A program made the translations under genes and the position numbers. Below, piece after piece: positions 1-18,747 of a DNA stretch of 18,747 bases (positions are counted from its first letter, which is position 1; each line of letters starts with the position of its first letter). The notes below the pieces were generated by a model that was not told the DNA's origin, did no database searches, and saw only the letters and a program-made list of their open reading frames with translations. The stretch lies in assembly GCA_022496205.1 (NCBI GenBank), contig WTXD01000196.1, forward strand, positions 1-18,747. The letters are read 5' to 3'. The stretch comes from Gloeopeniophorella convolvens (lineage: Eukaryota; Basidiomycota; Agaricomycetes; Russulales).

Positions 1-142
1 GCCGTTTTCGAAAAATGACAAGTTGAACCGTTGGCCTGCAAGGCAAGAACGCGTGACACGTGATACGTGATGTGCGTGTGAACTATCCGGCTGAACCCGG
101 TGTTGTACGAAACTTTGCGACGCGCGTTGCCACATCGTTTCG

Positions 143-205
143 CTCTCTTCTCCTCCCTCCATCTTTCCCCATTTCCCCTCTCCCTTTCCTCTTCCCTTCC
201 CTCCC
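143..205. repeat. Pyrimidine-rich low-complexity tract
   Basis: This is a 63-bp run made almost entirely of C and T on the plus strand, with only two A residues. It is followed by two copies of the word CTACCTGCAAG or a close variant (210-235). No function is implied. Such tracts occur in fungal promoters and in repeat debris. Confidence 0.7.
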
Positions 206-498
206 GCCGTACCTGCAAGCCCACTACCTGCAAGTTAAGGTCAGTATAGGATGGAACTGGGCATAGGGTGAGTGTTTAGCACGTCCTACATGGGTTTTCT
301 GACTTTATGACTAGTGCAAGATCTTGCTGGCTTGTTGCTGCCTCGCCTCTCATTATCTCTTGCTTCTTTGACTGGTATAAGGTATGTTTCTTCACTCTTC
401 CATGTACTATTGCTGACTCTGTTGAGCAGCAGACTCTGGTCCCTGGCTGGATGACTTGTGGTTGAGGGTTAGCATTGGGTTTCTAAGGTGGGGTTATG

Positions 499-513
499 TT
501 AGGGTTAGGGTTA
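499..513 (+). repeat. Short telomere-like TTAGGG repeat
   Basis: Two and a half units of TTAGGG lie in an AT-rich stretch. The array is too short to be a telomere and is recorded only as an interstitial telomere-like word, possibly chance. Confidence 0.4.
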
Positions 514-810
514 CTATTAGCTACTTTAATAGTGTATAATGTTAGTAGTATAATGTTGCAATATTAGCTCCTTTTCACTGCTTCTACATTGTAGTGTGAC
601 TATCTTTTCACTAGCTTATTTCTGTCTTATTGTGTGCCTTATCTTTGAGTGTTCTTTTAAAGATGCTAATAAGATGTAGGTCTTTTGACTAGTGTGGCAA
701 TTTAGATGGATAAGGAAGAAATAAGCCCAGTTCCCAATAATCACTTATTAAGGACAAAAAAGGTCTTATTTGGTATCATAAGAGGGGAGGGTTTTTGTAG
801 AGGATAACCA

Positions 811-1057
811 GAGACCCATGTGAAAGCGGAACTAAAGTGGGTCGACCAGAACTGCAGGTGGGTCAACCCAGAACTGCATGTGGGTCATGGAAGGGCCCGG
901 AAGAATCTAGAACAGGAACGAGAGTAGGTACAGCCTTAGGGGCTAGAACATAATGATGTCATATACATTGTAGATCAGATAGCTCGCAGATCACCGAGTC
1001 CCTTATCTAATCTAATCAGAGACGTCCTTCCTGTCCTGAGTCCTGTTCATCTCAACA
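811..1057 (-). mobile_element. Decayed LTR fragment, inverted relative of the solo LTR at 3570-4054
   Basis: Read on the minus strand, this segment aligns with the first ~210 bp of the solo LTR at 3570-4054. Shared blocks include an exact 18-mer (1004-1021 against 3596-3613), an exact 12-mer GTGGGTCATGGA (880-891 against 3721-3732) and a matching end, CTCAACA at 1057 against TGTTGAG at 3570. Intervening bases have diverged and carry small indels. The promoter half with TATA box and internal duplications is not recognisable further left. A TGTTGAGC at 420-427 could be the other end, but its flank (GACTC) does not match the bases after 1057 (ACCGA), so no target duplication is seen. It is probably an older, truncated member of the same LTR family. 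Confidence 0.6.
837..893 (+). repeat. Tandem 21-22 bp repeat inside the LTR fragment
   Basis: Two units beginning GTGGGTC and containing CCAGAACTGCA run head to tail (837-857 and 858-879). A third, partial GTGGGTCATGG follows from 880. The related solo LTR has no such array at the matching place, so this is a local expansion in this copy or subfamily. Confidence 0.65.
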
Positions 1058-1298
1058 ACCGACGTTCGAACTTCGTGTTGGAATCATGATCAATCATCGG
1101 ACAGTGATAAGATAAGGTGATCGGACATAGATTAGTCGTAGCGTACACTACCGTTTGACACAACTATCTAGACACACGGATTCATCCCTTCCTACCTCGA
1201 CGGGCGACACCATCCGGTCTCAAGTCACGGAAATATTCACACTTCGGTTCCATCTTTGGTTTATTAATGTCCGCCATCCAACTCTCCAGCGACTCGAG
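1058..1298. other. Left flank between LTR fragment and DNA transposon
   Basis: This is 241 bp of host or older repeat sequence ending at the target duplication of the DNA transposon. Read on the minus strand across the empty insertion site, its right end joins in frame with sequence after 8160 (see findings). No gene is confidently assigned. Confidence 0.5.
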
Positions 1299-1306
1299 TG
1301 CAGCAT
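1299..1306. repeat. Left target-site duplication TGCAGCAT
   Basis: This perfect 8-bp word immediately outside the left terminal inverted repeat is repeated at 8153-8160 just outside the right one. An 8-bp duplication is the usual signature of hAT and P superfamily insertion. Confidence 0.9.
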
Positions 1307-1330
1307 CAAGGGGGTCTCGGACCGGCAGGC
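1307..1330 (+). repeat. Left terminal inverted repeat of the DNA transposon
   Basis: These 24 bases match the reverse complement of 8129-8152 at 21 positions. The outermost 13 bases, CAAGGGGGTCTCG, are identical. The outer edge is fixed by the abutting target duplication. Confidence 0.88.
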
Positions 1331-1725
1331 CGGGACCGGACGTTAGGTAGTTAGTTGGTCCGGTGATGGCCCTATCAGAAAGTTGCACCCCCTCCTAAGT
1401 CAGCTGATTTTCGGGCTAGGGATGGCCGGATGGCACTCTAGAGCTCTCCATTAAGTTTGGAAATGTGTCTAATTAGCATTTTGAGCACTATTCTAATATT
1501 GCTGTGTGTCATTTTGGTGGGAATCCGTGCTTGTGTCCTCAAGCGTGTGTCAAATTGCCTTATGGGGAGGCCTCTTACCCTAATTGGGTGGATCGGACTG
1601 AGGTAGCATCGCAGCAAGTTGTCAACCACGCAGACCAAGACACAGATACAGTGGATACTACAGTACGCAAGAGACTACCATATCCTCGAATCTTCAAGCT
1701 TCTTTACCACCCTCTGGCTAGCACT

Positions 1726-3654
1726 ATGGCATCGGAGGTGCGTTGCATCGAACTTGTCCTGAGGCATTTGTCGTTGACAGGGGCCAGGGGTCTGCTAGCG
1801 ATGACATTGTCGCCGATGCCAATGGGCATGTTCTTTGCCCTGAGTGCAACGTGAAGATCCTGCTCGGGAATGGAGGAGTTAACAACTTTCGAAAGCAACA
1901 CCTTGGGAGCAAGAAGTGTCGCACCCAGAAGGCGAAACACATGGATGAAGCAGCCCGCGCGACCCAGACGGGCCTCCAGGCAAAGCTCACATCTTTCTTC
2001 CATCCTGCCCCTACACCTACCCCCGTTCCAAGTCAGGCGACACCACCGAGCCTCATCATGTCGACTGTGGCAGCCGCATGTCACGACACCGCAGGAGCAG
2101 CTGAGGATGCGGCATTGTCAGCTACTGCATGCACGCCTGCAACGGCTATGAGTTCAAACCTAGCTCCAATCACCTATGGTGGAGGTCGTGGTGGCGCATC
2201 TCAGGAGCGCACGGCAATGAGCGTTCTTAAACGACTGAAGGATGCCATCAAGGACTTACCATCATCAATCCCGAGCGCGACCGACACAGATCAACTTGCG
2301 CGGTTCGCAGAACTGTCGCTGAAGTCCTATGTTGTTGACAGTGAAGCTCGAAAGGCTCTGGACCTCAAGTTAACTCGGTTCATGGGCATCGGTGCCACAG
2401 CAAAGGATGTTGCGCTCCTTGTACGACGAGGCTCAATGGGGATGGACGCACTGCATGACTACATCAAGGATTTTGTCTTGGAGTACGAGATGGATGCAGA
2501 GCTGTTAGAAGGAAAGGTTAATATATTGGTGGAAGCAATGCGTATTGCGTGCGTTACTTAGCTCTCCTTCATCTTGCGTGTACTAAGCTGGCTCGGATAG
2601 ATCTCAAAGAGAGGAACATAATGCCATACAAGAAACACAACATAAAGAGAGCAATGGGCCCCCAATCCCCGCAGGCCCCGTGCTCAGAGTCCCGGATGCC
2701 TTAGCACCATCTAACGAGAGTCATCAACATGCGACTCCCGAGGCGCGTCCACAGCTGTGTGCTGGGTACTCACCTACGCTGCCGACGGGTTGCTCACCTC
2801 ACTCAAGCTACCCATTCGGACTTCATGACAAGTGGAGCCTTCCTTGGGATTATGAGACCCACCACGGAGCCTTGGTTCTAAGGGTGCACGCGTGCACAAG
2901 GATCGTAGCATCAGGTCGGTGCACCGCATGCAAAGCGCTCGCAACAAGCACCCTTCTAAAGGGTATTCTTTGGCGAATCGAACATGGAGTCAAAGAGAGT
3001 TCAGCATATCTGTACCATGGAATCGGTGGACTGATCAAACTTTTGAAGCACAAGACGGACCTTATCGACAACTTCAGGCTATGCCGCCTAAACGATGCGC
3101 GCAAGCTTGTTGGCCTCGAAGGGGTTCTTGACACCCAGAAGAAGGTCTTGCTTGCTGTGTCATCGCAGAGCATCCCGCGGATTGATCGAGTCCTTCGCGT
3201 GGGCTTCAATCGGGGTGCAAGCATGCAGAGCATCCTCTTGATGGTCCAGAAAGCTGCAGATGGCGTCTACCGACCCAAGGGATTTGACGAGAGGGACAAT
3301 CTTCTTGCGTCCCTCTTCCTTCGCTACGGAGGAGCGCGCCTGGCAAATATGACAGCACGCGTCTTTGGAACACCTGCGGCATCCACAATCTGCAAGCGAA
3401 CGAACATACCGATCCTTGCGCCATCACCCTCCATGCCAACTCTTTCCGAAGTTACTCAAAACATCCGGGCGGCACTTGAAGCCATCGTAGATATCCTCGC
3501 AGGGCCATCGGAAGGACCGTGCCACGCAGTGCTGATGTGGGATGAGTTGGCAATCGAGCAGCGCCCACGTGTTGAGACGGACAGTGTCCTGGCGGCTCTG
3601 ATTAGATTAGATATGGACCTAATGATCAAGGACTATCTTATCTTGTGTACATAA
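1726..3654 (+). CDS. 5' part of transposase: zinc finger and first catalytic acid, truncated in LTR
   Basis: As it stands the frame runs from the ATG through two introns (1738-1787, 2549-2600) into the LTR and stops at 3652-3654, giving about 608 residues. Near the start is a C2HC finger, C21-x2-C24-x16-H41-x5-C47, similar in spacing to BED-type DNA-binding fingers. A Thr/Pro/Ala-rich linker follows (about 65-140), then a helical stretch. In exon 3 come a Cys/His-rich patch (VHACTR...GRCTACKAL), a long helical region and, just before the break, the motif LMWDELAIEQRPR. Its aspartate (572) is the likely first catalytic residue. The last ~28 residues are encoded by the LTR and are foreign. A truncated product could bind DNA but could not catalyse transposition. 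Confidence 0.7.
3565..3569. repeat. Left 5-bp target duplication of the solo LTR (CCACG)
   Basis: CCACG lies directly before the TGTTGA end of the LTR and is repeated at 4055-4059 after TCAACA. It falls inside the codons for Pro-Arg in the transposase motif. Confidence 0.88.
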
Positions 3655-3826
3655 TGTTCTAGACTTAAGGCTATGCTCAGCCCCACATTTGTTTCCATGT
3701 TCTGGACTATTCTAGGGCATTCCATGACCCACCTTGTACTCCGGTACCCACTCTTACTCCGTTTCATGTGGGTCTCCTAGGCTTTCTAAGCAGTGTTTAT
3801 CACATGCTATCTGTCGCTCCTTACTG

Positions 3827-3834
3827 TATATAAG
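3827..3834 (+). promoter_or_regulatory. TATA box of the LTR
   Basis: TATATAAG lies mid-LTR, at the place where the U3/R boundary is expected, followed by a pyrimidine-rich stretch. In its present place it could start transcription into the 3' half of the transposase gene. Confidence 0.55.
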
Positions 3835-3859
3835 GACCTCTTTCTTCGCCTTTGTAGCC

Positions 3860-4023
3860 TCAGTCTTTTGACCTTCTCTGACTGAGGCAAGTACACTACC
3901 GCTCTTTTCACTTCTACCTTATGCTTACCTTACCTTGTAGCGTCACTCTGTGTCCTTCAGGTATTGCACTAATGTATCAGTCTTTTGACCTTCTCTGACT
4001 GAGCGTCACTCTGTGTCCTTCAG
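3860..4023 (+). repeat. Duplicated 27-bp and 21-bp blocks within the LTR
   Basis: A 27-bp block (starting TCAGTCTTTTGACC) occurs exactly at 3860-3886 and 3977-4003. A 21-bp block (starting GCGTCACTCTGTG) occurs exactly at 3940-3960 and 4003-4023. The order is A...B...A-B, so the second pair is directly fused. Both lie downstream of the TATA box, in the likely R/U5 part. Confidence 0.85.
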
Positions 4024-4054
4024 TTGTCACTCCACCCTTTGCTGCGCTTCAACA

Positions 4055-4059
4055 CCACG
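4055..4059. repeat. Right 5-bp target duplication of the solo LTR (CCACG)
   Basis: This is the second copy of CCACG, directly after the TCAACA end of the LTR. The transposase frame resumes here with CCA CGG TGG. Confidence 0.88.
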
Positions 4060-7000
4060 GTGGGACGACAAGACAAATAACTTGTTAGGATTTTGCAGAG
4101 AATGCACTAAAGATACTTCCCTGGAGTTTTCAAGTATGGAGGACTTGGATGTTGTGTTTGATGAGCTTGAGCATGGAGAAGTGCATCTCGCGTCGGAGGT
4201 GAGTGGGAAAAAACAGTCTGCCCATTCGGGATGTTGACTGACACATGTTGATAGGCGACTGTGGGCGCTATCGGTTTGCTGAGCGCTGACTCGCGTCTCT
4301 ACAGCGCACGCCCCATCCTCGCATCTGGAAGCTGCAAACGCGAGAGCGCTCGAGACCATGTCACCCTCTTGCAAACAACAATTAATGCTGTAAACTCTCA
4401 GAAAGCATTGACGCGTGCTCGCATTGTTTCCCTGGCCTCTGACGGCGAAGCACGTCGTGGCAAAGCACTTGTGCACCTCACCTTCAAGTCGCTCCTCTCA
4501 CCGACATCATCTATATATCTATCCCTTTCAACACTCTCCCTCATGGACCTCCACGTGGGCGATGACGACATCACTGCAGACAAAGACTACAAACACGTTG
4601 TGTTCAAGCGTTTACGAAATGTGCTACTCCGCGAGAAAGGTTCCCTCGTGCTAGGGGTTTGGATCACTCCTGCACTCCTGCGTCGCCACCTCTTGGATTC
4701 AGGTCATACTTTGGCCCATGTACAGTCCGTCTTGAACCCTGCTGATAAACAAGATGTCGAACTCGCGTACCGGCTTGAACGCGACATCTGGTCCCTCAAG
4801 TCACTAGCTGAAGATGCATCCAAGGACGCAGCGTATGCTCAGACACGCGACGCACTGTGCGCATTCGGTTCTTTGTGTTATCACCTCGTATTCCCATACA
4901 TATGTGTCGACCTCTCCCTCTCTGAGCAACTCGGGCATCTTAGCAGCACCGCCCATCTTGCCATGGCGCTCTACACATTCGAAGATGCCAAGTCCCGCTT
5001 CCTCCCCAATGCGCTCTATATCGACATCATGATCATGATCAAGAACGTCTTCTTCTGCGTTGCAAAGGCGAAGGTTGACATGCCCGAGCGCCCATTCTAC
5101 TTGATCCTGCTCGGGACTGATCGACTCGAGTCACTTTTTGGTATTCTGCGCACCATGGTTGGCAACGATGCAAACCTCGACATGTTACAACTTGCATTAC
5201 GAGTCACAGGCACAACTGAGGTGGCAAATATCCTCGCAAAGCATCCAGAGTGGGACAGAGCACCACGGCGCTTACATCTGCCTACTCTTACGAGGGATGC
5301 CCAGGCAGTCCATGGTGCTGATCATATTAGCCCGCGCGCATGGCGGGGAAGCGTCGTTCCCCAGGACGTCACCTTGGCTACATGCTGGAAGCGTGGGCGA
5401 CGCTTCATTGAAGACAAATTCCCGTTTACAACAGAACAGCTTCGTACAATCGACGAAACACCAGGCGCATCGATCTTGGCACCCTTCGGAACGCTTATGG
5501 TGAAGCCCCTGCTAACTGGGGAGTCTTCGGACACCAGCGTCCTCGCTCTCATGGACGACAACATCGAGGAACCTGAGGTGCCTGTCACCCTTGCCGATAG
5601 CACCGTAGAGAGCGATCTTATGGGTGAGGGTTTACGCACTTTGGAAGATGCTGCCTCGCAGGCCGAGTGGGGCGAAACTTCAGCAACATCAAAGGGAGCT
5701 TCATTTTCGAATCAAATCGACGTCAATGGCAAAGGCGAGATAATCAGTAAGGCACGCGCGCTCGCGCAACGCTTCAAGTACAAGACGACTTCTAGCTCAA
5801 CCGATCGTCTCCGCCGAGTCCAGCAGGAGCCAAGGTACATGAACGGCGGCAGCGCTTCCATTGGACCCCTCGCTCATCTCCAGGAGGGTCCGCGAATTTC
5901 AGTCACAGACCCCGTAGCTTCACTTGTTCGCTGCGATGGCCACGTCTTCCTATGCCTTGGCGAGATCAATAACATCAAGTTCAACTCACAGGCAGTAGAA
6001 GAAGTTCTCGTTTCCGTTCTACACGAGAAAGCGGTTCAAATTTCCTATCAAGTGATCAGTCTCATCCCGGCGACTGACGCTGACGATCCCTCGAAGAAAT
6101 GTGACTGGCGCTCTTCGCGCCTGCTCCCTATCACGCTCACGGTCCCGGGTGCTCTCATTCATCCGATCAACCCATTAATGGGGATGCGTGAAGCCCCGGG
6201 TGGGGCCAGCACATTCTTCATTCTCGACAGTCCTACTTTAGTTGCATTGGCTTCGACACTTCACGACCGGGTGATGTACACGCATGCGCGTGTTGTACCA
6301 TCTATCAAGCCGAGCAACGATTTCCCATACCATGAGCCAGCAGGTACGCTCTTCATATCCTGGACACCAGGCATCATGTGACGTTTCGTCTAGGGAAGGC
6401 TTGCTTTGTTGCAGAAGGGAGGCACGATGTTCACGAATCGATGTCTCTCTGCTGCCCACAGTGCCTTCCCGAATTCCGATTCGATGCCTCAAACGCCCAG
6501 CGGATCCTGGAACACGTTGGCAGCCACATCCTCCACGATTCCTCAGTAGACCGTACAATCGAGCCCTGTGGACTTTGCCTACAGTCGTGGGGCGGGTGTC
6601 AAATCTTTCTCAAAAAGACAAAAGGACAAAACCGAAACCTCGGAATCCTACGCGAATGGAGTACATGTGCCAACTTTGTCAAATTCTCGTATGCCGTCGC
6701 CGCAAAGTCCACCGCTTCCTCGCCTTGTAGTAACGTTCCGCTAATTTGTCCACTGTGTCCTTCCAACTCACCTGCTGTATGGCGCTACAATATCCAAGCT
6801 CACTTCGCACGCGTCCATCCGTCTGTGCCTGCAGGGACCTATGAAGACCTATGGAGGCTTGACGACAATGAACTGCACGAGATGGACCGTGTCTGGAAAG
6901 CCCGTGCTAAGCAGGTTGAGCCACGGAAGAAGAAGCAAGATGTATGTAACCTGGTGATCTCCGAGGCACACAGCTCCCGAAATGCGGCACAGTGCGTCTG

Positions 7001-7893
7001 GTGGACTGCTTCCTCCGGTGAATCAAGGTTGACTTGTATCTAGATCGACATTGAAGGTCAGCTCACAAGACGAAGATGCCGAAAGCACCGGCGACTATCT
7101 GTACTCAGATCCGGTGTCGGAAGAAGAGGATGCGCTGCCAACGAGTGTGGCAGATCTCCCCTATGATGACATTCTCCACAGTCCCTATGAAGACTCGGAG
7201 ATACCTCCGATAGGTGCCGAGGATACCTGCAAGATGTCTCCGCCCGCGCGAGAGCCCGAGCACTGCGATCTGACTTTGGAGTCAGCCTCTGACTGCGCTC
7301 CAGAAGCGTTGGGGACCGGTACTCTTGTAGTCGAAACGGGGACTATCGAGGATGCGCAACCCTTGATGGAAGATGCGCCTGGGGGTGAACCCAGTCGCGG
7401 ACTTGAAACCGGTAAGCTGCTCGCGTTGTAGGATGGTGTTTCTTGTACTCACAATACGCGTAGGTGATCCATCGAGCGAGGAAGCTGCAGATATAGAGCA
7501 CACGAACAATGCGTGTGAAGCACACGGCACATCTCACCCCGGAGAGCCGGCGGGTGGAGGAGATTCGGCAAGTGGAGGCGAGCCAACGCGGACAAGGAGG
7601 AAGCGCAAGGGACTTGACCTGGCAATAGTTCGGCACTGTATATGTGGGGATGAGGCCGTTGCGGGTGCCAAAGACTCGATCATGTGTGCGTGGGGAGGTT
7701 GCGATACGATATGGGTGAGTGTGAGTTTTTCTTCAGTCAGTAACAGTGCTCACCCGGTGTCCTCTTCGCTCTGATCCCACCCAAATCCCACCCTTAGTTT
7801 CACTTGGAATGTGTTGAACTTGTGGAGCCGGCAAAAGGCTGGACCTGCACTTCATGCAAAGCAACGGCCAGCAAAAAGCAGAGACGTCGTTGA
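4055..7893 (+). CDS. 3' part of transposase: catalytic core, C2H2-like fingers and PHD finger
   Basis: The frame resumes after the LTR and runs through six exons to the stop at 7891-7893. Numbering is for the uninterrupted protein. A likely second catalytic aspartate is D690 in SLASDGEARRGKAL. At about 736-748 is a DKDYKHVVFKRLRN motif like the PH..K..RN segment before the helical insertion of P-element transposases. The likely catalytic glutamate is E919 in DRLESLFGILRTMVGND. A low-complexity region (about 1030-1130) follows. Next are a C-x2-C...H-x3-H finger from about 1344, a second C-x2-C-x14-H-x4-H finger from 1442, an acidic Ser/Glu/Asp-rich linker, and a C4HC3 PHD finger (1702-1750) followed by a basic tail. 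No ATG is well placed after the LTR, though the LTR promoter could drive a fragment. Confidence 0.75.
7637..7868 (+). other. PHD-finger-encoding segment, split by an 83-bp intron
   Basis: The zinc ligands read CIC, then IMC, GGC, FHLEC, and GWTCTSC, which is the C4HC3 order of PHD fingers. An aromatic residue follows the fourth cysteine and a Trp precedes the last pair, as is usual. The intron (7715-7797) falls between the Trp of DTIW and the Phe of FHLEC. PHD fingers commonly read histone H3 tails. A role in chromatin targeting of the transposase is inferred. Confidence 0.85.
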
Positions 7894-8128
7894 TATCGGA
7901 CGTCTGTAGAGGGATGGTGCAAGTGAAGGAGAGTGGCTGGCGGGCGTGGGTTGAACGTGGGAGTTGGGAGAAGTTCCCAGCGCGCGAGGGAAACACAGAT
8001 AGCGACGTGTCTTAATCTTATCTTTCCTTATTTGGTAGATGTCCCTGATGACTAATCACGTGCCTGCTTACATACCTAGTTAGTCCAACCCCCCTATCGG
8101 TATTGAGAAAATGCGACCCCCGGTTTCT
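7894..8128. other. 3' untranslated and subterminal region of the DNA transposon
   Basis: This is 235 bp between the transposase stop codon and the right inverted repeat. I see no gene. It should hold the polyadenylation signal and subterminal transposase-binding sites, but none is clear enough to name. Confidence 0.6.
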
Positions 8129-8152
8129 GACTGCAGGTTCGAGACCCCCTTG
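8129..8152 (-). repeat. Right terminal inverted repeat of the DNA transposon
   Basis: The reverse complement begins CAAGGGGGTCTCG and matches the left repeat at 21 of 24 positions. GGTTCGAGACC within it resembles a tRNA B-box, but the arms around it do not pair as a tRNA T-stem. Confidence 0.88.
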
Positions 8153-8160
8153 TGCAGCAT
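8153..8160. repeat. Right target-site duplication TGCAGCAT
   Basis: This is identical to 1299-1306 and directly abuts the right inverted repeat, closing the element. Confidence 0.9.
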
Positions 8161-8398
8161 ACTGGAGACAATACTTACCCAGCCACGACAAATTACGTCG
8201 ATGGCACTCGCCCTCCGACAACTGAAGAATAGCATCAGTTATCTAAGCCCAATCACATTTTGTTGCGGGGACACTGCGTCTTCGAGCTTCACGCACGCTG
8301 CGCAGCTGATATTGGGGCGGGCCCTGAGGTAAGGACTGATGCTAATAAGAGCAGACCGACGTTACACACCTATCAACTGATCTCAAGGCCACCGGGAG
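8161..8398. other. Host sequence between transposon and DUF6535 gene
   Basis: This is 238 bp with no confidently assigned gene. On the minus strand an open frame from about 8221 leads down to the insertion site. Just upstream of it is a splice-acceptor-like stretch (CTGATGCTATTCTTCAG, ending at 8222). It may belong to a small gene split by the transposon (see findings). Confidence 0.4.
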
Positions 8399-11300
8399 TT
8401 AGGACTCATCGCTCGAAGAGTCCGAGTCTACGTGCGCCCGTCCGCGCTTATGCCCTCCCTGATGCTCCCTCGACGAGTCCTCCTCCCCGATGGTACTCAG
8501 CTTTGTGTCCACTCGTTCTGCAGCACGCGGAAATGACGGCCCAAGGCCATTATAATAGGGGGGATCGCCCGGCATTCCTAGTTGATCGGTCTGCGCAACG
8601 CCAGGCATGCCTCGCAGCGGCCCGCTATGGGGAACCCGGGAAGGAGAAGTCAGTCGAGAGAAGCTTCGAGAGCGCGGCGCAGTATGGTTCGTGACTGGGG
8701 CCGGGGATAATGGTGGATAAGGGTAGTGCGCGGCAGACGAGGGCTCGGCCCTATTTAGTGCACCCAGTGGCGGGCTACTGGGAGTATCGGCATAGGGGTT
8801 TGGGGGTACCAAGAGGCGCCGCCCCCTGAGTAGGTGGGGACAAAGCTGGAGGGGCGGAGTTCGGGCATTCCGGTAGGATTCGTGTCGGGGTAGCTATCAG
8901 TTACACCGCTGTACGGCCCTGGCCGCCATTGAGGGCCAGCAGCCGGCAGTACACCGTACCGGGTAAATGTCGCTGCTACTGGCTGCATCAGTGTCGAAGC
9001 CGGTGGGGGGTAGCCAGTCGGGAGGGCTGCAAGAGGAGGCTTGGGGGAGTTCGTGTAGAGTCCTCTGTAAGGTGGCTCTGGTAAGACCGTCGGCCAAGAT
9101 GCGACCCGGTAGGTCTGGATGAGAGGCTTACCTGGGTAGGCGTAGGCTGAGCCCATGTGTGGATGTCCAGAGTAGGGTGCAGCGTCCTCCGCGTGACGGT
9201 GATGATGCGAGTCGCTCTCGATGTCGTTCCTCGCAAGGCGCATGAGGTTGATCTCCTCGATCATGTCCAGTAGCGGCTGTAACTTGGATCTGACGTCGCT
9301 GCCACCCTTGACGCCGCTCCTGCGCGCCAATTTTCGCAGGCGCTTGAATTCAGCCCATACCCTATTCGATGCGTTGATCAGCGGCAGACGTGGATCCTTG
9401 ACCAATCTTCTGAGCAGCTTCCACAGCTTCTCGACGTCTTCCGGCGGCAACGAGTCCGATCCGCCGAGCGGGAGCTCTATCGTGGCGAGGACCCCGAGCC
9501 TGCAAAAGTTGTAGAGGGGTCCGTCGCGAGCGGCTACGTCCAAAAGTTTTTGTGCCCTGGTGAGAAGTTCGCCTTCAATCCTCCTCTTGCGGGTAAATGA
9601 CTCCCAGAATCCAACGTCCGCTTTCTCTACGACGTCCAAGAAGATGAACAGTCTTGCGAGAGCTACGATGTCCCATTCCGAACGAAGAGACAGAGGTTGT
9701 CCGCGAGAGACCTCCTCTGAAAATTGGATCAGTATGGCTTGGTAGAGCTGTGCATTGAACAGACTCGTGCGGAAGCTGATGTACCTCCCGGCGAAGACGT
9801 CGCGGAAGCACTCCTCCCAGAACAGCTCGACGTGGTTCACCAGGGACCCGAACTCGGGCGCGCGCCAATTTGCATCCTGCGAGCTTGCGAGGGAGGAGAA
9901 CGCCGCGTCGAGCACATCGTGGCATGCTACAAACACCTGCACTTTGCTCCGAATCGGGCGGTCGGCTTGCATGCACGTTTGGAGGTTGACTTGCAGCTTG
10001 GTCCAGAGGTCGTCTTTGGAGACGATACGCTCCATGAAGACTGCCGACCGATCGGCGCCGCTGTCCGAGAGGAATTTGGGGAGGCACTTCGCAAACGCCT
10101 CCAACAGGTCGCTGTTTTCGAGGTGCTCCTGCCCGAACATGGCTTCCGTGACGTTGGCAGTGGATACTTTTGGTTGGCGTAGAAAGGCAGTTGCAAGGTG
10201 CCTCCCTCGCACCACGATGTTCAAGACTTCGAGAAGAGGGGTGAGGCGGCCGCCTCGATCGTTCCTCTCGACGCCGTCTCGTACTCTGCTGTGGACTTCT
10301 TCGAACCGTGTCTGCACCAAGTTAGATGCCTGCGCCTGAGCGATCCCAGAGATGTGAGGAGTGTATCGAGCGTCCTCCAACACATGTCCAGATTGAGCTC
10401 GCGCACGTTGACATGGACAGGATGGCGTCGGCGAAGACGGCAAGGTTTTCTAGTGGTCCATCGTGTACAAGGTCCTCCCACATGGTAGTATCACTTGGTT
10501 CGAGCCGGATAGCGTCCACTGAAGGGTGGTAGGAAGGTCGCGCCATTGTCCACTGCTCGTGTTCTTTCTGGTGCGGAGGAATGCATATAGCGGAACAAGG
10601 TAGTCCGGAAACCTTTGGTCAGATAGCGACTGCAGGTCCGTGCGAACGTAAGGGATGAGGAAACCGTGGAAGGCAAGACACCGAACGCTTGACGCGCGTA
10701 GGGCCACGACGGAGTCTGGCCTCTTGCACAGCTCATCCAGATGCTCTATGATGGCCCGGATGTACCCGGCGTCCGAACCACCGGTACGGGTGCCGCTCGA
10801 TTCGAAAATGAGACGCAAGGAGCTAACGCACGCCAGCACGCGGGACATGCAAGCTTCTTCGGAAAGCTCGAACGACATCACGCATGCCGTAAAGTGCTCC
10901 CTGATCCGTCGCAGGATGTGCTCGGCGGCCAGACCTTCGGCCAGATTCTTTGCCTCCGTGAGAGGGGAAGAAACATATCCCGGAAGTCCTTTTAGGAACT
11001 CATCCATATCTCCACCGTCCAGCTTCTGGAGAAGCCAGTGCAACGCGAATCGATCGAGTTCTGGCGCTCTGGAATTTGCCTCGTCCATGAGCACGACCTC
11101 CCTGTTCAGTTTGATAGCTCGGGAGGATCCAGAATCTCCTTGGGATAGATTCGGGGATGTGGTTCGAGCTAAGCGCTTTGCAGCGGTGAGGAAGGAGTGA
11201 ATGATCAGGACCAAGGCTTTGATCGGGGTCGTGAGAGCTGTTTGATACGGAGAGTTGCCGGATATGAGCGGAGAAATGCTGAGTGTCATGTACACGGCGA

Positions 11301-12045
11301 GGAGCGCGACAAGAGAATATCGCGCAACCAGACCAACGACGGCATCGATGGTATGGAGGAAATCGCTGAGTGCCCAGAAGAATAGAAAGACCGAGGCGTG
11401 AAGGAGGACGGGAACCCCCTCGATGAATCTTCGCATCTGGAACTGAGAAAGTCCAGAGAACATGTACGCTCGGACTCTCCCCCGCTTATGAGGGGCGGCA
11501 TTTGGCTGAGAATATTGAAGGTAGTCGCGGGCCCATTGTTGTACCAACGTTGAAGCAAGAGCGCTGGACACGCTGAGGAAGAGGCTGAGGAACATGAGGA
11601 TATTGATGCGAACAGCAGAAGCTGTCGCAGTGGTCGGCTGGGAGCCTCCAATGGGAGTGGACGACGGCCGGGATATATTCGACTGAGAGATGACTTGAAT
11701 GAGTAGGGCGACCGTTTCGGGGCCGGAGTCGACCCGGAGAGTCTTGTATGTCTCGATGAGAAGGCTGGCAACGATGGTAGAGAAAAGGCCGGTCTACAAC
11801 ATCGTCAGAAAGCGGACGGCTGAGACCTCTCCGTAAGGACTCACGAAGATCAGCATCGAATTCGTATTGCCCATCCAGCTTTCTACGAGGGCCTTGTCGT
11901 ATTTTTCCGACTCCAAGCCATAGAGATTCCACATCTGGGCGGACGTGTCCCCATATTCAGAGCCTCGACAGAAGGGTGAGCCGATCGAATAGGTATCAAC
12001 AGCAGCAGCCTTACCTTTGTCTCCATCCTTCTCAACTACGAACAT
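8399..12045 (-). CDS. DUF6535-like membrane protein gene, probably frameshifted
   Basis: Exon 1 (11845-12045) and a 51-bp GT-AG intron (11794-11844) lead into a long second exon. The protein has an N-terminal motif WNLYGLESEKYDKALVESW and four membrane helices near residues 63-82, 130-155, 185-210 and 215-240, the layout of the basidiomycete DUF6535 family. Several hundred helical soluble residues and a Pro/Tyr/Ser-rich tail ending in a DSDSSSDES run follow. The function of the family is unknown. The frame changes near 10516 (one base short in a GG pair), near 10380 (net +1 or -2) and in a G-run at 8802-8806 (C-run on the coding strand). With these bridged the product is about 1,200 residues. 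A 45-bp intron (10450-10494) could bypass the first two breaks but would replace natural-looking sequence with an odd Pro/Cys/Arg-rich peptide. Without bridging the last break the protein ends at 8755. Confidence 0.65.
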
Positions 12046-12970
12046 TCGCGCCAGCGAGCCTCTTCGCGTGCCGGCTTAAAGAGCGGCTCTCGTCAGTGGA
12101 TTGACTCCGGGTGAAGTGGAATGTGAAATTCAGCAGACCTTCGCGCTGGGCTTCAGGATCCCTTGGATGTGCTGCGCTCGCCATTCAGGATCCAATTATG
12201 CGAGCATCTATCGTATCGCTTTAGAGGATACTCACGGGCGATTGCATCTGTTCCGCGCCTGTCCCGACGGGTGGCAGCAGACTACTGGGGATATATTGGG
12301 GCCTCGGGGTTCCGCGATGAAAACACGTTGACAGAGCGCCTTCGAAGTACCAGCAGATGGGTTCGAAGAGCATACATGCGGTCTGACAGCGGAGCCCCAC
12401 AGCGAGGTTAGCCTTGGGATGGCATGTTCTGAGGGAAGCAGAAGCAGTGGCAGCAGAACGCGGCCAGGCGCCTGCTGTCACGTGGAGCCCAGTCAACTGA
12501 CATCGTTGTCCGAGACGAGTCCGTCTCGTGAGCGCTTATATCTTTACTTCTTGCCAACCGACGCACCAGCGGAGAACGTGTTGAGTACGCTCGAACGGAG
12601 AGGTTTAGTAGGAAATGACGGTGCGCACAACACACTCCGCCACAGGAAGTGTGACTCAATCTCTGAACAGTATCGTCGTTCTCTATTGAAATAGGGCTCA
12701 ATGTCGCCGACATAGCTTCCCTCCCGGAACTGTCGCGGAACACAACTTCTGACATGGAATCTGGCGCGTGTCGCTGTGCACTCCCTGGCCTACTAAAGTA
12801 CTAAACCCTTGACCCAAATCATCGATAGGTCATCGATGGGAGTAGACCCCCCCCCTCCCCCCGGTGCAGTCGATTTGGCACTTCCTGTCAATTTCTACTA
12901 GGTCTAGCTGCTGCCCTCACGCCTCTGTTCCATCCATTGATGAGCTCTACTTTACCCAATCCCGACAATC
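12046..12970. other. Divergent intergenic region
   Basis: This is 925 bp between the start of the minus-strand DUF6535 gene and the plus-strand seven-helix membrane gene, so it should hold both promoters. TTATATC at about 12537-12543 is a weak TATA-like word. Two TCATCGAT words lie close together near 12820-12837, and a C-rich tract follows. Open frames here show no motif or codon pattern that I would call a gene. Confidence 0.5.
12847..12862 (+). repeat. C-rich homopolymeric tract
   Basis: C9-T-C6 lies about 110 bp upstream of the ATG of the seven-helix membrane gene. Such tracts are prone to length error in sequencing and may act as a nucleosome-poor promoter element. Confidence 0.75.
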
Positions 12971-14077
12971 ATGAGTAATACCACCGTTTGCCAGGGCATA
13001 ATAGCAAACCCGGATGTATCTGGAATCGGGGTGAGTCGACTGCCGCTATCATGTTGCACCTTTCGTAGTCGGCGGCAGCTCTAATGCCCAGCATGCAGAT
13101 TCGCGTGAACTTCTACGTCACGATGATATTGACGGCCTTGGTTCCGTACGCGGAACCCACACACGAGCTGCTTGACGACCTCAATCTGAGCGCGGTACTC
13201 TACGGCCTCAGCCTCATCGTCACTGCTGTCATCCAGACGGCACAGGGTCAACTGGACTTGTACCATGCCATCTTCGTGATACACATGCTGACCTTTCTTT
13301 CCCATGTCTACGGAAACGGTGCTACCCCTTCGGTCCTTTTGCGTCCCTGGGCTGACTGTCATTGTATGCAGCGATGACTAGGTTTCTCACGGTCAAACCA
13401 GAGGAGCGCTCGTTCCGCATGGCAACTACCATTGCCATGCAGACCATATCGCTCGCCATGGTTTATAGCTGGGCCATATACGTCTGGGTGTTGGACGCGC
13501 GCTTCGGCTCGCAGCCTGAGTGCAACGACCTCGTCAAGTACATCGTGTTCGGCTTTACCGTACGCGCGACTGTCAACTGGTATCGGGTGCTTGCGCTTGT
13601 CATCTTCCCGTTGTCATTGGCCAACCTCATACGCGGGAGGTATCTACTGCTCCGCGCGTTACACAGAAGCGAGCACCTTGAGGAAGAAAAGTATGGGATG
13701 AATTCCCTGAAGGCCTGGCTCGGCAGCGTAGCGTGTGTACCTTCTTCGAGAATGACTTACTACGACTGGGGGCTAACGCGGAGCTTCGCAGGTTGGCTAT
13801 ATACAGTATAGTCATTCTGGAATTGACGGTGCGCTTTCGTGTCTTTCGCGATGTTCTTTATGCTAACCTGGAGACTCAGGTTAAGCGCAACAGCTCCCTT
13901 ATCCTTCCCGGAGAAAGCGACTGGACCTTCGGCCAGGTCGTGGCAGTTGTACTCACTCTCGCTTCAATCATCGAAATCGTGGATCATTTATACAACGCGA
14001 GGAGAGCCGGTCGTAAGATGTTGAAGCAACCCCGGAGCGCCACCGAGTTGCAGACTGTGGCTGATGGGACTGCATGA
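12971..14077 (+). CDS. Seven-helix fungal membrane protein, 308 aa, function unknown
   Basis: There are four exons, 12971-13030, 13099-13318, 13372-13732 and 13792-14077. They are joined by GT-AG introns of 68, 53 and 59 bp, and the phases fit to give 309 codons including the stop. The ATG at 12971 gives a short extracellular-type N-terminus, MSNTTVCQGI, with one Asn-X-Thr site. Seven hydrophobic helices are visible at about 23-37, 50-68, 75-92, 112-134, 155-180, 210-230 and 265-285, separated by short charged loops. The C-terminal tail is basic, then polar. The topology resembles small seven-helix proteins common in basidiomycetes. I cannot assign a ligand, transport activity or a Pfam name with confidence. 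No frame defect is seen, unlike the genes on either side. Confidence 0.8.
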
Positions 14078-14837
14078 AGTACCGTTCGGGCAAGTTATGG
14101 TGCCTTTGCTTCAATGTATTGTCCAAAGTAATCGAGTACATGTTCCCTCGACGCGCCCCCTTGATAAGCTTACCTGATACTTCAACGAGGAGTCATCGAA
14201 GAGGACGTGCCGCGCGTACGAGGCAACCATTCTATCCACAAGTGCATCTGGTCCTGCGAGGGTGAGCATAAGATGCGGGGCGGCCTGTGCACGGTCCGGG
14301 AGGGCTTTCGGGGCTCGCGTCTAGAAGATCTTGGCTCCGAGGGAGGCCGCCGCCTAGTAACGTAGGCCGCCCACGCGCTGACAGTGCTGAGATCGTTTGG
14401 GCCGCCTACTCTCAGAGCAGTCACCATCAGGTCAGTAGCGTAGCACCCACTTAGCCTAGGGCTGTTGCCTTATTCTTGGTCTACCGCCCTTACACGACTG
14501 CCAGTAGCGTGCCTTGTTCGCCAAACAAGTTCGCATGGTGACACTCCTAGCGATTCTAGACCCGCGTCCACGAGGGCTCTCCACTCCCTGTCGCAACAGC
14601 GACGAGCGATTCACGTGCGCATGGGGCATGACTTGCGCTGCGCTCATCCTCGTACATCCGCCTTACTCAACCTGTATTGCGTACTACATAAGATATTGGA
14701 TTCAGAACAGTCTTCGAGTCGTTATCCCCGCAAACCCACCCCAGGGTTGGTGCTACGGGGAATTTGAGTCATCTATCCTAACAGTCTCCCCTCTCTGCGC
14801 GGCCCAGCCTTCCCCGCCAAATTACGGCACCATATTC
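14078..14837. other. Intergenic region, no supported gene
   Basis: This is 760 bp between two converging genes. Open frames of about 60-145 codons exist on both strands but have no motifs, no sensible start context and no splice pattern. It should contain the 3' untranslated regions of both neighbours. No repeat or transposon end was recognised. Confidence 0.55.
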
Positions 14838-17800
14838 TTACTGTGCCGCAATCTCCTCCAACTTTCGGTACTTCGAGTGATGAGCAGATTCAGTCGAGCA
14901 CAGCGGCGTGAGATTGCGCCTAATGTTTTCTCGAGCCTGCTTAACTTGTGAATCGGTATCTGGATCGGAGTCTGCGTATGCTGCCTTCGGATCGGGCATC
15001 GATCGTTGCAGAATGAGCTTGTACTCCTCCCGCTCATTGCCGATGATCGGGAATGTTTCTGGCCAGATCCCTGAGAACCAGATGTCATACGCAGTGAAGG
15101 GTTTGCCATGTCGTGAGTCACGGTCTGATGGTTTCGCAATATGCATCGCTGGCTCTTCGAGGCGAGAGCGAAGACCATGCGGATGCACGGCAGTGGCGTT
15201 TCATCGTCCTTATACACTTTGAGGGAGAACGGGTTTATGGCGTGGAACAATATAGATCGTGTGCGGGACCGATGCGTTTGTCGTTCTTGACCTGGATAAA
15301 AATCGCTGACACCGTCTTGCGTGAAAGGACGTCGCCAGAGATGCAGAACGGGATCACGATGTCGACGGCGACTTGCTGGATTGGCACATAATCATCGCGC
15401 CACGCGTCATGAACTTCCACAGCTCGTGCGAGCTGAGCATTGCGGTATCGTGAATCCTGATGACGTGATTAACCAGAGCCGACTGTCCTTGAACGCGTCC
15501 CAAACGACTGCTTCTCGGCCTCGGTACGATGTTGGAACGGCAGGGCCTCCTTCAGTTGTGCATACGCAAAGTCTGGCATCAGTGCTTCGAGAAAATCGCA
15601 CAGAGGGATGTCCCGGGTCCCCGTTATGCCAGCGACCTTGTCTCGCGCCGCCATTAGAATCAGCAATGCGGTGAGCTCGCCCCGATTGCCACGATCAATA
15701 AACGGTTGGTCAAGCCGACCTGCAAGATGCTTCACGGGGCTCTGGCCGATGTCAGAGAGAATTTCCTGCGCTGCCTCCGCGAGGAATGGCTCCGAGCTGG
15801 ATGTAGTGGATAGCGCTTCAAAGCCCGATGTTGCGGAGATGCAGAGTCGCATGTGTCGCTCGACTAGTGTGAGCACGGCATCGCGATGGAACTCGGTTGT
15901 GGGGTTGAATTCCAGCGCGAATCGTATGGCAACGGAGGCCAGAACCCAGTTGCCGGGCTCCGGTGTGATCTCCTTTTCCCACTTCTTCATGGCCTCTGGA
16001 ACCGTGATATTTCCACCAAGTATCTTTTGCTTTGCGAAATTATGGATGTTTGTGCGCGCTAAGTTATTTGGCGCAAAATCATAGAGGGAGCCAAATCTTC
16101 CACACACGCCGATGAGCATGCGTCACATGGATAGAGACGAGAGAACTCACAGGGGGCGACCCAGATGGCATATCCAATTTAGGCTGGTGACTTCGGTCAG
16201 GGTGACAACGCCTTCACATGCGACAGGCATAAGTACATCGAAGCCTGTCTCTGTAATCGGGGGCAACACAGAGTACTTCTTGCGCGAGATCCGGCTGGAG
16301 GGGTCCGATGGCAGTGTTGGAGAGAATCGACGGAACTTTCCTCCCGTCGCGAGAAATAGAGAAAATATCGGAACATCCGCCGCCTGTCGGAGCGCACGGC
16401 GCAACTCGGAGAAGACAGACCAGCTATCTTGTTTATCGCTCTCGGTGAGCCGATGCGATTCATCAAACGAGAGGATGAGGAATGGCCGCCGGATATCGGT
16501 CTTCTTTCCGGCTGGAGCTCCCCAGACTCTGGCGGGGTCAATGAAATCGTTCAACCTCGTCACCACCTGGGCGATGTCGCCTGCAAAAGTTGATGTAAGA
16601 AGCAATGTTCACAAATATCCTCCACGGCGGCCACTGACCATTAGAGGCATTCCTATATCTCACGGGGCTCGATTTGATCGAAGGAGAGGGATTTGAAGTG
16701 CCGACTGGAAATCGTTCGTCACAATGTTATAGGGTTGATAGACAAGCAACTTACCTGCGCTTCTCCCCCTTTGCTTTGATTCGGGACTCGGTCCATCGTC
16801 ACTGTCTCCTTGTTCATGAACCCGCCGGCTTCCAGAGGTAAACTGACATACAAGATGAGTCGCACGAGTAGCATAGGAACTATACAGACGTACCGTTCTC
16901 GCTCCGTCATGACGTCCTTATAAAACTTCTTTCGATAGTCATTTGCGCTACCGAATGCTTGTCCATGGGTCATCAAGTGACGGAAAGCACTCGCGAGGCG
17001 TTCTTGGCGCCTGACGAAGAACGCAGCTGCATTCCTGCGCTCCGCTTCTTCTGAAGGTTTGTACTTCCCAGCCAGCATATCGTCCACAGTCCAAGTCTTC
17101 CTAGCGACTTTTAGCTTCTCTAGTCGGCTGAAAGCTATTCAGCACCGGAAGTAGCGGAAGTACACGACGCGGTGGGTTACCTTGCGATGCCTCTATCTCT
17201 TTCAGTCGTTGCAGTGTTACTCTAGGAGAGAGTGCAAGAAACCGTGCAACTTCTTTTCGGTCTCCTCCTTGCCAGATTTGGGTAATTCAGCAAACCAGTC
17301 GCGAAGACTACCGTCAGCAGGCGGAAACCCTACCCGCGCCGTTCGTTAGGTTTTATAACATGCGAGGAAGCCGGAACTCGCAGACCTGTGGAATCCTTGT
17401 CCCGCAGACACATCGGCACACTGATGATTGTCTTCGCCAACTCGTCGACCATGCGCGACTTGCCTGTCCCGGAGGAATTTATGATGCTCGCGAGTGGGGC
17501 ATAGTTAGTCCTCTTCGTTTTGAGGTAGTCTGAGATGATATTGAGGAGAACATCGGTGGCGTTTCCTCGATATTGAAGATCCCAAGATTCCAAGACCACT
17601 GAGGGTTGATTAGCGACAGGCCGGGTGGACAGTTACAACACGCCTACTCTGCTTCTCCTCTTCGGTGTCATCCAGGGAAGGGGTAACAGCCGGCTTGCGA
17701 AGGATTTCTTGATGAGATACGAGCATGTCAGCACGGGTTAGGGCGCAGACAATGTAGGTATGCAGCTCACTGAGAAGGCGCAATTTGCGAGCGGTCCGAT

Positions 17801-18145
17801 TTTCGCAGCAGTCCTGCACCAGAGATACAAGCCACGGATACTCCTCGAAGAGTTGCGTTACGTTGCTGTCTGAGTCCTTGTCGCTGTTATATTTCTTGTC
17901 CAACAGATCGCAGCTGTTGACAACCATTGTGAGAACGAGCGCGGCCGCAACAGTTGAGGCGTCGCCAGCTGCGTGCAAAGTGCTGAATGTTTTCATCGTA
18001 AACCTGAGAATGATGTCCCCGTCAAGCTGTTCATGCTCTTCATCGCGGAGGTCGTCCGGTACCATCTCGCTGCCTCTTCCCCGGCAACGGCCAGGTTAGG
18101 GCGTCCGACTCCAACGCCCGCCATTAATTCGTCAGTAGCCTGCAT
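14838..18145 (-). pseudogene. P-loop NTPase with C-terminal REase-like nuclease core, frameshifted
   Basis: Exons on the minus strand are 18116-18145, 17648-18065, 17386-17598, 17181-17329, 16894-17134, 16755-16828, 16639-16704, 16151-16580 and 14838-16096. Introns are 46-65 bp, GT-AG, with consistent phases. The Walker A-like motif NSSGTGKSR is at about 17453-17479, followed by a GFPPADG...RDWF segment. Walker B, FLILSFDESHRL, is at about 16448-16483. Near the C-terminus VDIVIPF...AIFIQVKND (15284-15366) gives D-x22-Q-V-K, as in the restriction-endonuclease fold. This order recalls Crinkler/RHS-type NTPase-nuclease proteins, an inference from motifs only. The frame loses one base at each of about 17224, 15505, 15471, 15383, 15250 and 15156. 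With all six allowed for, the length is 961 residues. Exon 1 is the least certain part. It is probably a decayed member of a tandem family. Confidence 0.6.
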
Positions 18146-18642
18146 GGAGAGGATCGCTCGAGGTCTCAGAGCTGATAGTAGCAGAGAAGTTGCAGATAGC
18201 GTGAGCCTGTTACAGCCTGGGTGGCAGTGGAAGGGACGGAGAAAGGACGACTTGGAAATGTGCCACAAGCTATCGGCGACTCGGAATATATAGCATGTCC
18301 TCAGGCACGACCACACAACGACCACACGACACCCGTGTCGCTCGTGTTACGTAATTGAACTGCCGTTTGTGGAAAATTAATGCACTGCCACAAGCTGCCA
18401 CAAGTGCGCGCTGAGGTAGGCTGCTGAGGTCAGCTCGAGGCTCGAGGCTCGGTTGCTTACGTCACAGCACTCAGGCATGTACTCGCTGACTTGAACTTCG
18501 TCGACTCGGTTTCAAGGTCGAGGTCTCGTACTTCCGAGTTCAAGTCCAGGGGATCGGAACCACAACTCCTATCGCCACACCGACAAGAGATCCACGCACG
18601 TGCGGGCGAGAGTTACATTGCAAGTCAAACTCGTACATGACA
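18146..18642. other. Spacer between two NTPase-family genes
   Basis: This 497-bp spacer should hold the promoter of the left gene and the 3' untranslated region of the right one. It contains the short palindrome CGACAC-CC-GTGTCG near 18325, repeated GCCACAAG words near 18390-18405, and GCTCGAG/GAGGCTC repeats near 18433-18450. No gene is seen. Confidence 0.5.
18287..18292 (-). promoter_or_regulatory. Candidate TATA box of the NTPase gene
   Basis: TATATA lies about 140 bp upstream of the proposed ATG at 18145, within CTATATATTCC on the minus strand. Position and sequence are plausible for a fungal core promoter. No transcript evidence is available. Confidence 0.35.
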
Positions 18643-18747
18643 CTATATCTCGCGCAACTTATGGGCGCTTATATCAAGCTGCAATCTCCTCCACGACCTG
18701 TACTTCGCGTTGTGAGCAGGGTCAATCTCGCACAGCGGTTGAAATTC
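18643..18747 (-). CDS. C-terminus of a second NTPase/nuclease family member (partial)
   Basis: The minus-strand frame enters from the right edge and stops at 18643-18645, giving 34 residues. It contains PLCEIDPAHNAKYRSW, which lines up with PLCSTESAHHSKYRKL at the very end of the neighbouring NTPase gene. The two also share nucleotide blocks such as TGGAGGAGATTGC. It is therefore a paralogue in the same orientation, with the rest of the gene beyond the window. The tail continues ten or so residues further than in the neighbour. Confidence 0.7.
   Translation of the reverse strand, partial: EFQPLCEIDPAHNAKYRSWRRLQLDISAHKLREI

Follow-up and report, generated by a model that had tools for sequence, protein, structure and literature searches.

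The 18,747-bp stretch of DNA from the agaricomycete Gloeopeniophorella convolvens considered here, referred to as the window (assembly GCA_022496205.1, contig WTXD01000196.1, positions 1 to 18,747 of the forward strand), raises the question of how a very long gene lying between inverted repeats is to be understood, that is, whether it is an ordinary host gene or the transposase of a mobile element and, if the latter, to which superfamily that element belongs. A preliminary description had taken it for a complete DNA transposon with a single large transposase-like gene. The analysis presented here leads to the reading, to which we assign a probability of about 0.8, that the stretch carries a recently moved and now broken copy of a P-like family of cut-and-paste DNA transposons. 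The analysis shows defined ends, 8-bp target-site duplications, empty sites, several long copies that carry the gene alongside short non-autonomous ones, and selection that acted on the protein in the past.

The element occupies positions 1307-8152 (6846 bp) between two perfect copies of the target-site duplication TGCAGCAT. Its inverted arms (33 nt, 82% complementary) form the longest inverted repeat listed for positions 1000-8500, and the two ends are identical at 21 of their first 24 bp, compared with 16/24 at best in 500 dinucleotide shuffles. The 1307/8152 ends are also the sole pair in positions 1200-8300 that combine a perfect 8-bp flanking repeat with an end identity of at least 18/24. 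Hence the claim that the ends could be fixed to the base, with an 8-bp duplication on both sides, is borne out. In the host genome (36.68 Mb in 404 contigs, whose numbers are given here with the prefix C), the 20-mer end pattern CAAGGGGGTCTCGRRCCKGC occurs without mismatch at 13 places, all of which are ends of element copies or remnants, and with up to three mismatches at 67 places, compared with 25 for a backward control.

Matches to the left 194 bp of the element number 12 in this genome, and those to the right 193 bp number eight. Eight independent insertions, which fall into three protein families (A, B, and C), are complete at both ends, and each is flanked by a perfect 8-bp duplication, with a different 8-mer in every case. 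The 8-mers are TGCAGCAT (window), GGTGTACC (C45), CATGGAAG (the C370 locus), CCTTGAAC (C2), and GGTGCAAT (C5) in family A, GACTCCGT (C105) and CTACAGAG (C352) in family B, and GGTAAACT (C379) in family C. Further copies that share the ends but differ in their 8-bp flanks, for which a search had been proposed, thus exist within the host genome. An 8-bp duplication is present in eight of the nine independent copies that have both ends in full, the exception being C363. The second long copy of family A (C45:22256-28609, 6354 bp) is 99.4 and 99.6% identical to the window copy in two blocks, while the short copies of this family, on C370 (1481 bp), C2 (1482 bp), and C5 (1057 bp), are non-autonomous and have in common with the long element only ends of ∼0.15-0.2 kb. 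The C370 locus recurs with a small left-end change on C404, C376, and C326, and these duplicates were left out of the independent count. The two 1.48-kb copies (94% alike) have interiors that bear no relation to the long element, and the one on C2 contains a 322-aa open frame on the minus strand. Family B, whose exon 4 is 65% identical to that of A and whose terminal inverted repeats are 37 bp long (86%), is represented on C105 (6077 bp), C352 (6625 bp), C363, and C61, and family C, 62% identical to A in exon 4, by C379:79352-89602 (10,251 bp), the right end and flank of which recur on C227. Homologous genes without inverted repeats at a similar distance, one of the observations named in the preliminary description as refuting it, were not found among the seven genome loci with the transposase core. 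In six of these, both inverted ends are present at a distance of 6.1-10.3 kb, and the seventh (C61) starts at a contig edge and retains the right end only. A 66-bp piece of a left end (C342:154393-154458) also lies in a remnant of 69 bp that is bordered on either side by ATCGCGAT, and this is perhaps a product of incomplete excision or repair.

Mobility is evident from unoccupied sites. In a host-genome search with the flanks of each of the eight insertions joined (the best 40 of 175 and the best 40 of 335 candidates were scored), empty sites holding a single 8-mer, the kind that the preliminary description had proposed to look for, were found for four of the eight (C370, C5, C105, and C352). 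All 11 unoccupied places examined align across the junction with a single 8-mer, which is identical to that of the insertion in eight of them and reads GGCGCAAT rather than GGTGCAAT in the three for C5. Because the empty places hold one copy, the length of the duplication is fixed at 8 bp. For the sites of the window and C45 copies, all 36 matches of the joined flanks were scored and none extends across the junction; the outer ∼55 bases of the left flank of the window copy recur elsewhere in the genome. The four insertions with empty sites lie within repeated DNA, perhaps long terminal repeat (LTR) retrotransposons. Given copies with different duplications together with empty sites, the element is therefore a genuine cut-and-paste transposon with terminal inverted repeats, an 8-bp target duplication, and long as well as short non-autonomous members.

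The gene inside the element was modeled on the C45 copy and the exons were then transferred to window coordinates by reading. It has eight exons separated by seven introns of 50-83 bp, the boundaries of intron 2 having alternatives. The exons of two copies add up to ∼1,762 residues, in agreement with the earlier figure of ∼1,760, and, as a correction to the preliminary description, the gene is split. The motifs of the core are MWDELAIEQ, SLASDGEAR, DKDYKH...KRLRN, and GTDRLESLFG, and a BED-like finger near the N-terminus, a type assigned by eye, is kept in family B. Divergence at nonsynonymous sites (pN) is well under that at synonymous sites (pS) in all three comparisons (0.22 and 0.69 for A versus B, 0.18 and 0.76 for A versus C, and 0.14 and 0.71 for B versus C), and the gene has therefore been under selection across the families.

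The window copy is complete in its ends and duplication and, contrary to what was supposed, not in its gene. A solo LTR of 486 bp that had gone unnoticed, flanked by a 5-bp duplication (CCACG at 3565-3569 and 4056-4060), interrupts exon 3 just past the first catalytic Asp motif and breaks the transposase frame. The C45 copy has a single CCACG at the corresponding site and carries a frameshift near its C-terminus, so that neither long copy of family A looks intact. The same LTR has at least 40 other full-length matches in the genome (the best 40 of 353 candidates were scored). The window and C45 copies differ by 28 substitutions, 27 of which are transitions, 22 of these at CpG, while 24% of C/G lie in CpG. 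This suggests CpG methylation of these elements, and the A copies appear to have moved recently and then undergone methylation-like decay. The nested solo LTR, the seven introns, the BED-like finger, and a conserved C-terminal PHD finger of the ING type are all additions to the preliminary description.

To which superfamily the element belongs was approached with Pfam scans of pieces of the proteins (E ≤ 1 for exon 4 and E ≤ 10 for the other scans, with filters that drop most matches above ∼0.1; exon 3 of family C was not among the pieces). PF21787, the N-terminal part of the P-type ribonuclease H (RNase H) domain, matched at the first Asp in fragments of B (E = 0.0003) and A (E = 0.0092) and, in longer constructs, with E = 0.0078 (B) and 0.12 (A). 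Against the 36.7-Mb genome at E ≤ 1, it found three places, all of them B copies (best E 0.056). PF21789, the C-terminal part of the domain, matched at the Glu in a fragment of C (E = 0.018), and in a genome search at E ≤ 10 it found two places, family C being the second (E 0.33). The distance from the second Asp to the Glu is 229 residues, with a DxxE arrangement, and leaves room for an insertion domain; P transposase has D303 and E531, a distance of 228, with D528 three residues before the Glu (PMC7776569). The suggestion that 8-bp duplications fit the P/hAT type can be narrowed to P-like, since P models match weakly and hAT models do not match in the pieces scanned.

The subterminal regions point in the same direction. 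Counted from the left end, the first base of the motif TAGTTAGT is base 41 or 42 in seven of the eight insertions (it has one mismatch in C5); counted from the right end, its last base is base 69 in all eight. These positions are kept across three families whose synonymous sites are near saturation. In the window copy, 8 bp separate the 33-bp repeat from the motif at the left end and 35 bp at the right end. These may be transposase-binding sites at unequal distances from the ends, as judged from their placement. All 14 exact genome matches to a longer motif, TNMCTAGTTAGTCCA, lie inside these elements, and four of five one-mismatch matches lie at such ends, the remaining one being on C323. TAGTTAGT occurs once more in the window, outside the element.

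Compared with Drosophila P, the element is longer (6.4 kb without the nested LTR versus 2.9 kb) and so is its protein (∼1,760 versus 751 residues), which has a BED-like finger where P has THAP, together with extra Cys/His stretches and the C-terminal ING-type PHD finger. Its short partners have unrelated interiors and are not plain internal deletions as in P. The 17-nt staggered donor cleavage that characterizes the P superfamily is a biochemical trait. The RepeatMasker class DNA/P-Fungi denotes the fungal branch of P and would be the expected home of the family if the placement is confirmed. Drosophila P and the THAP9 transposases share with it the 8-bp duplication, inverted ends of ∼31-33 bp, an internal motif at unequal distances from the ends, short non-autonomous partners, and the DxxE with nearly the same spacing; the 31-bp repeats of P, in contrast, are perfect, and its repeat-to-motif gaps are 9 and 21 bp, which have been compared with the 12/23 spacing found in V(D)J signals (PMC7776569). 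The THAP finger is stated to be absent from fungi (PMC7776569).

Several observations weigh against a P-like placement. Every match to a P model lies below the curated cut-off, and PF21789 also matched in one of 14 control genomes. Its best place in the host genome (C179, E 0.038) is not a copy of this element, and it had no match in the A and B fragments, just as the PF21787 genome search at E ≤ 1 found no A or C copy. Taken alone, exon 4 of the window copy gave no Pfam match at E ≤ 1, and PF21788 and PF12017, the models for the GTP-binding domain and for insect P, had none at E ≤ 10 in the pieces scanned. The N-terminal 79 residues gave no Pfam match, no THAP finger was found, and the distance between the first and second Asp is 118 residues versus 73 in P. 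Two PDB searches with the core, the second with a crude profile in which family C stood as two pieces, found no match, and a single-sequence fold of the transposase was unusable (mean predicted local distance difference test, pLDDT, 35.6). At the ends, the TAGTTAGT copies are direct and not inverted, and TNMCTAGTTAGTCCA has 19 genome matches with up to one mismatch versus 25 for the backward control, which is no enrichment, so that the evidence for it rests on position. The C363 copy has both ends and flanking 8-mers that do not match. Because the P matches are sub-threshold, no THAP finger was found, and the spacing of the first two Asp residues is off, the element is called P-like and not a proven member. 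The stretch C179:196516-196590, where PF21789 matches with one stop, is perhaps another P-like remnant. C363 has a left flank as in C105 and a different right flank, as ectopic recombination or mis-assembly might produce.

An unlikely alternative, a new fungus-specific superfamily between P and hAT, would account for P matches that are sub-threshold and patchy between families, for the BED-like plus PHD architecture, and for the differing Asp spacing, but not readily for two separate P models matching where expected, PF21787 at the first Asp (A and B) and PF21789 at the Glu (C). The fungal P branch among the RepeatMasker classes also speaks against it. In Agaricomycetes, a large multi-finger protein together with an 8-bp duplication is typical of KDZ, and membership in KDZ/Zisupton/Dileera or another fungal superfamily with 8-bp duplications and zinc fingers would suit these features; it is improbable, however, as no KDZ or CxC Pfam model matched in the pieces scanned. 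A hAT element, which we consider improbable, would likewise leave 8-bp duplications. The core may be of the RNase H type and hold a large insertion, and the transposases of P and hAT are related (PMC3985635), but no hAT model, the dimerization domain common in hAT included, matched the pieces scanned under filters that drop weak matches, whereas P models did. That two inverted repeats happen by chance to enclose an ordinary host gene is refuted to the point of being negligible by the shuffles, the further copies, and the empty sites, and nothing was found for it.

The spliced C-termini of the transposases match PHD fingers in the PDB (E = 4.4e-6 for A, 2.7e-5 for B, and 5.1e-7 for C), the best matches being of the ING/YNG type, and in all three families the C4HC3 set is complete and the W that precedes F/Y-H is kept, as in ING/YNG2-type fingers, which are readers of methylated histone H3 lysine 4 (H3K4me). 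ING2 has a Tyr of the methyl-lysine cage before the first Cys, and A, B, and C differ in having H, E, and H there; K4me3 binding is therefore uncertain, although chromatin reading by this finger is plausible from its sequence. Under the P-like reading, the ∼1,760-residue transposase would bind the ends via its BED-like finger and the asymmetric TAGTTAGT sites, cut with an RNase H-type D/D/E core resembling that of P transposase, and join the element to target sites 8 bp apart, and the PHD finger might conceivably tether the complex to chromatin. That the families form a fungal P-type lineage in which a BED-like finger replaces THAP, an ING-type PHD finger guides target capture by histone marks, and direct TAGTTAGT copies serve a 12/23-like rule is a possible but doubtful extension.

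A multi-finger protein of Agaricomycetes is hereby tied to exact termini, a target-site length, empty sites, and non-autonomous partners, and such genes can therefore be annotated as transposases and masked. The family also provides a fungal test of the P mechanism, in which possibly ancestral parts (the 8-bp stagger and asymmetric sites) might be told from animal-specific ones (THAP), and a transposase with a finger of the histone-reader type that lends itself to direct testing.

Features of the P-like element, in window positions
Feature	Position	Strand	Basis or remark
Left target-site duplication TGCAGCAT	1299..1306		Sequence, end-pair analysis
Left terminal inverted repeat	1307..1339	+	Inverted-repeat search
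Subterminal motif TAGTTAGT, putative transposase-binding site	1348..1355	+	First base is base 42 from left end
Exon 1, start codon	1726..1737	+	C45 gene model
Exon 2, BED-like finger C-x2-C...H-x5-C (CPECN...FRKQHLGSKKC)	1788..2548	+	End depends on intron 2
Exon 3, first catalytic Asp motif MWDELAIEQ, split by nested LTR	2601..4198	+	Gene model, PF21787 match
Nested solo LTR, TGTTGA...TCAACA	3570..4055	+	486 bp; absent from C45 copy
Exon 4, catalytic core (SDGEA Asp, TDRLE Glu)	4255..6343	+	Gene model, family alignment
Exon 5, two Cys/His-rich finger-like stretches	6394..6991	+	By eye
Exon 6, acidic linker	7044..7411	+	Gene model
Exon 7, first half of PHD finger	7464..7714	+	Gene model, profile/PDB matches
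Exon 8, second half of PHD finger and stop codon	7798..7893	+	Gene model, profile/PDB matches
Subterminal motif TAGTTAGT	8077..8084	+	Last base is base 69 from right end
Right terminal inverted repeat	8120..8152	-	Inverted-repeat search
Right target-site duplication TGCAGCAT	8153..8160		Sequence, end-pair analysis

A second terminal family, CATGGGGGTCTCTGACCTCC, which is frequent among the three-mismatch places of CAAGGGGGTCTCGRRCCKGC, was considered and rejected; one of its places (C341:219760) sits between two LTR copies of apparently one retrotransposon. Eight CAAGGGG-like ends (C2:394619, C179:31473, C360:77819, C383:337098, C190:158566, C45:6143, C355:167045, and C201:39996) had neither a second end with a duplication in the stretches examined nor a transposase match. 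Searches of ncbifam gave no lead, and a scan of viral contigs gave three pattern matches, none of them a relative of the element. On C341, two matches to the nested LTR are separated by 5.7 kb, an arrangement like that of a full-length retrotransposon, and C341:217870-224043 is likely to be one. Elsewhere in the window, the minus strand carries a DUF6535 (PF20153) gene at 10450-11790 (E 6e-36) and, at 17330-17632, an open frame in which a P-loop-like stretch, SSGTGKSR, can be recognized by eye.

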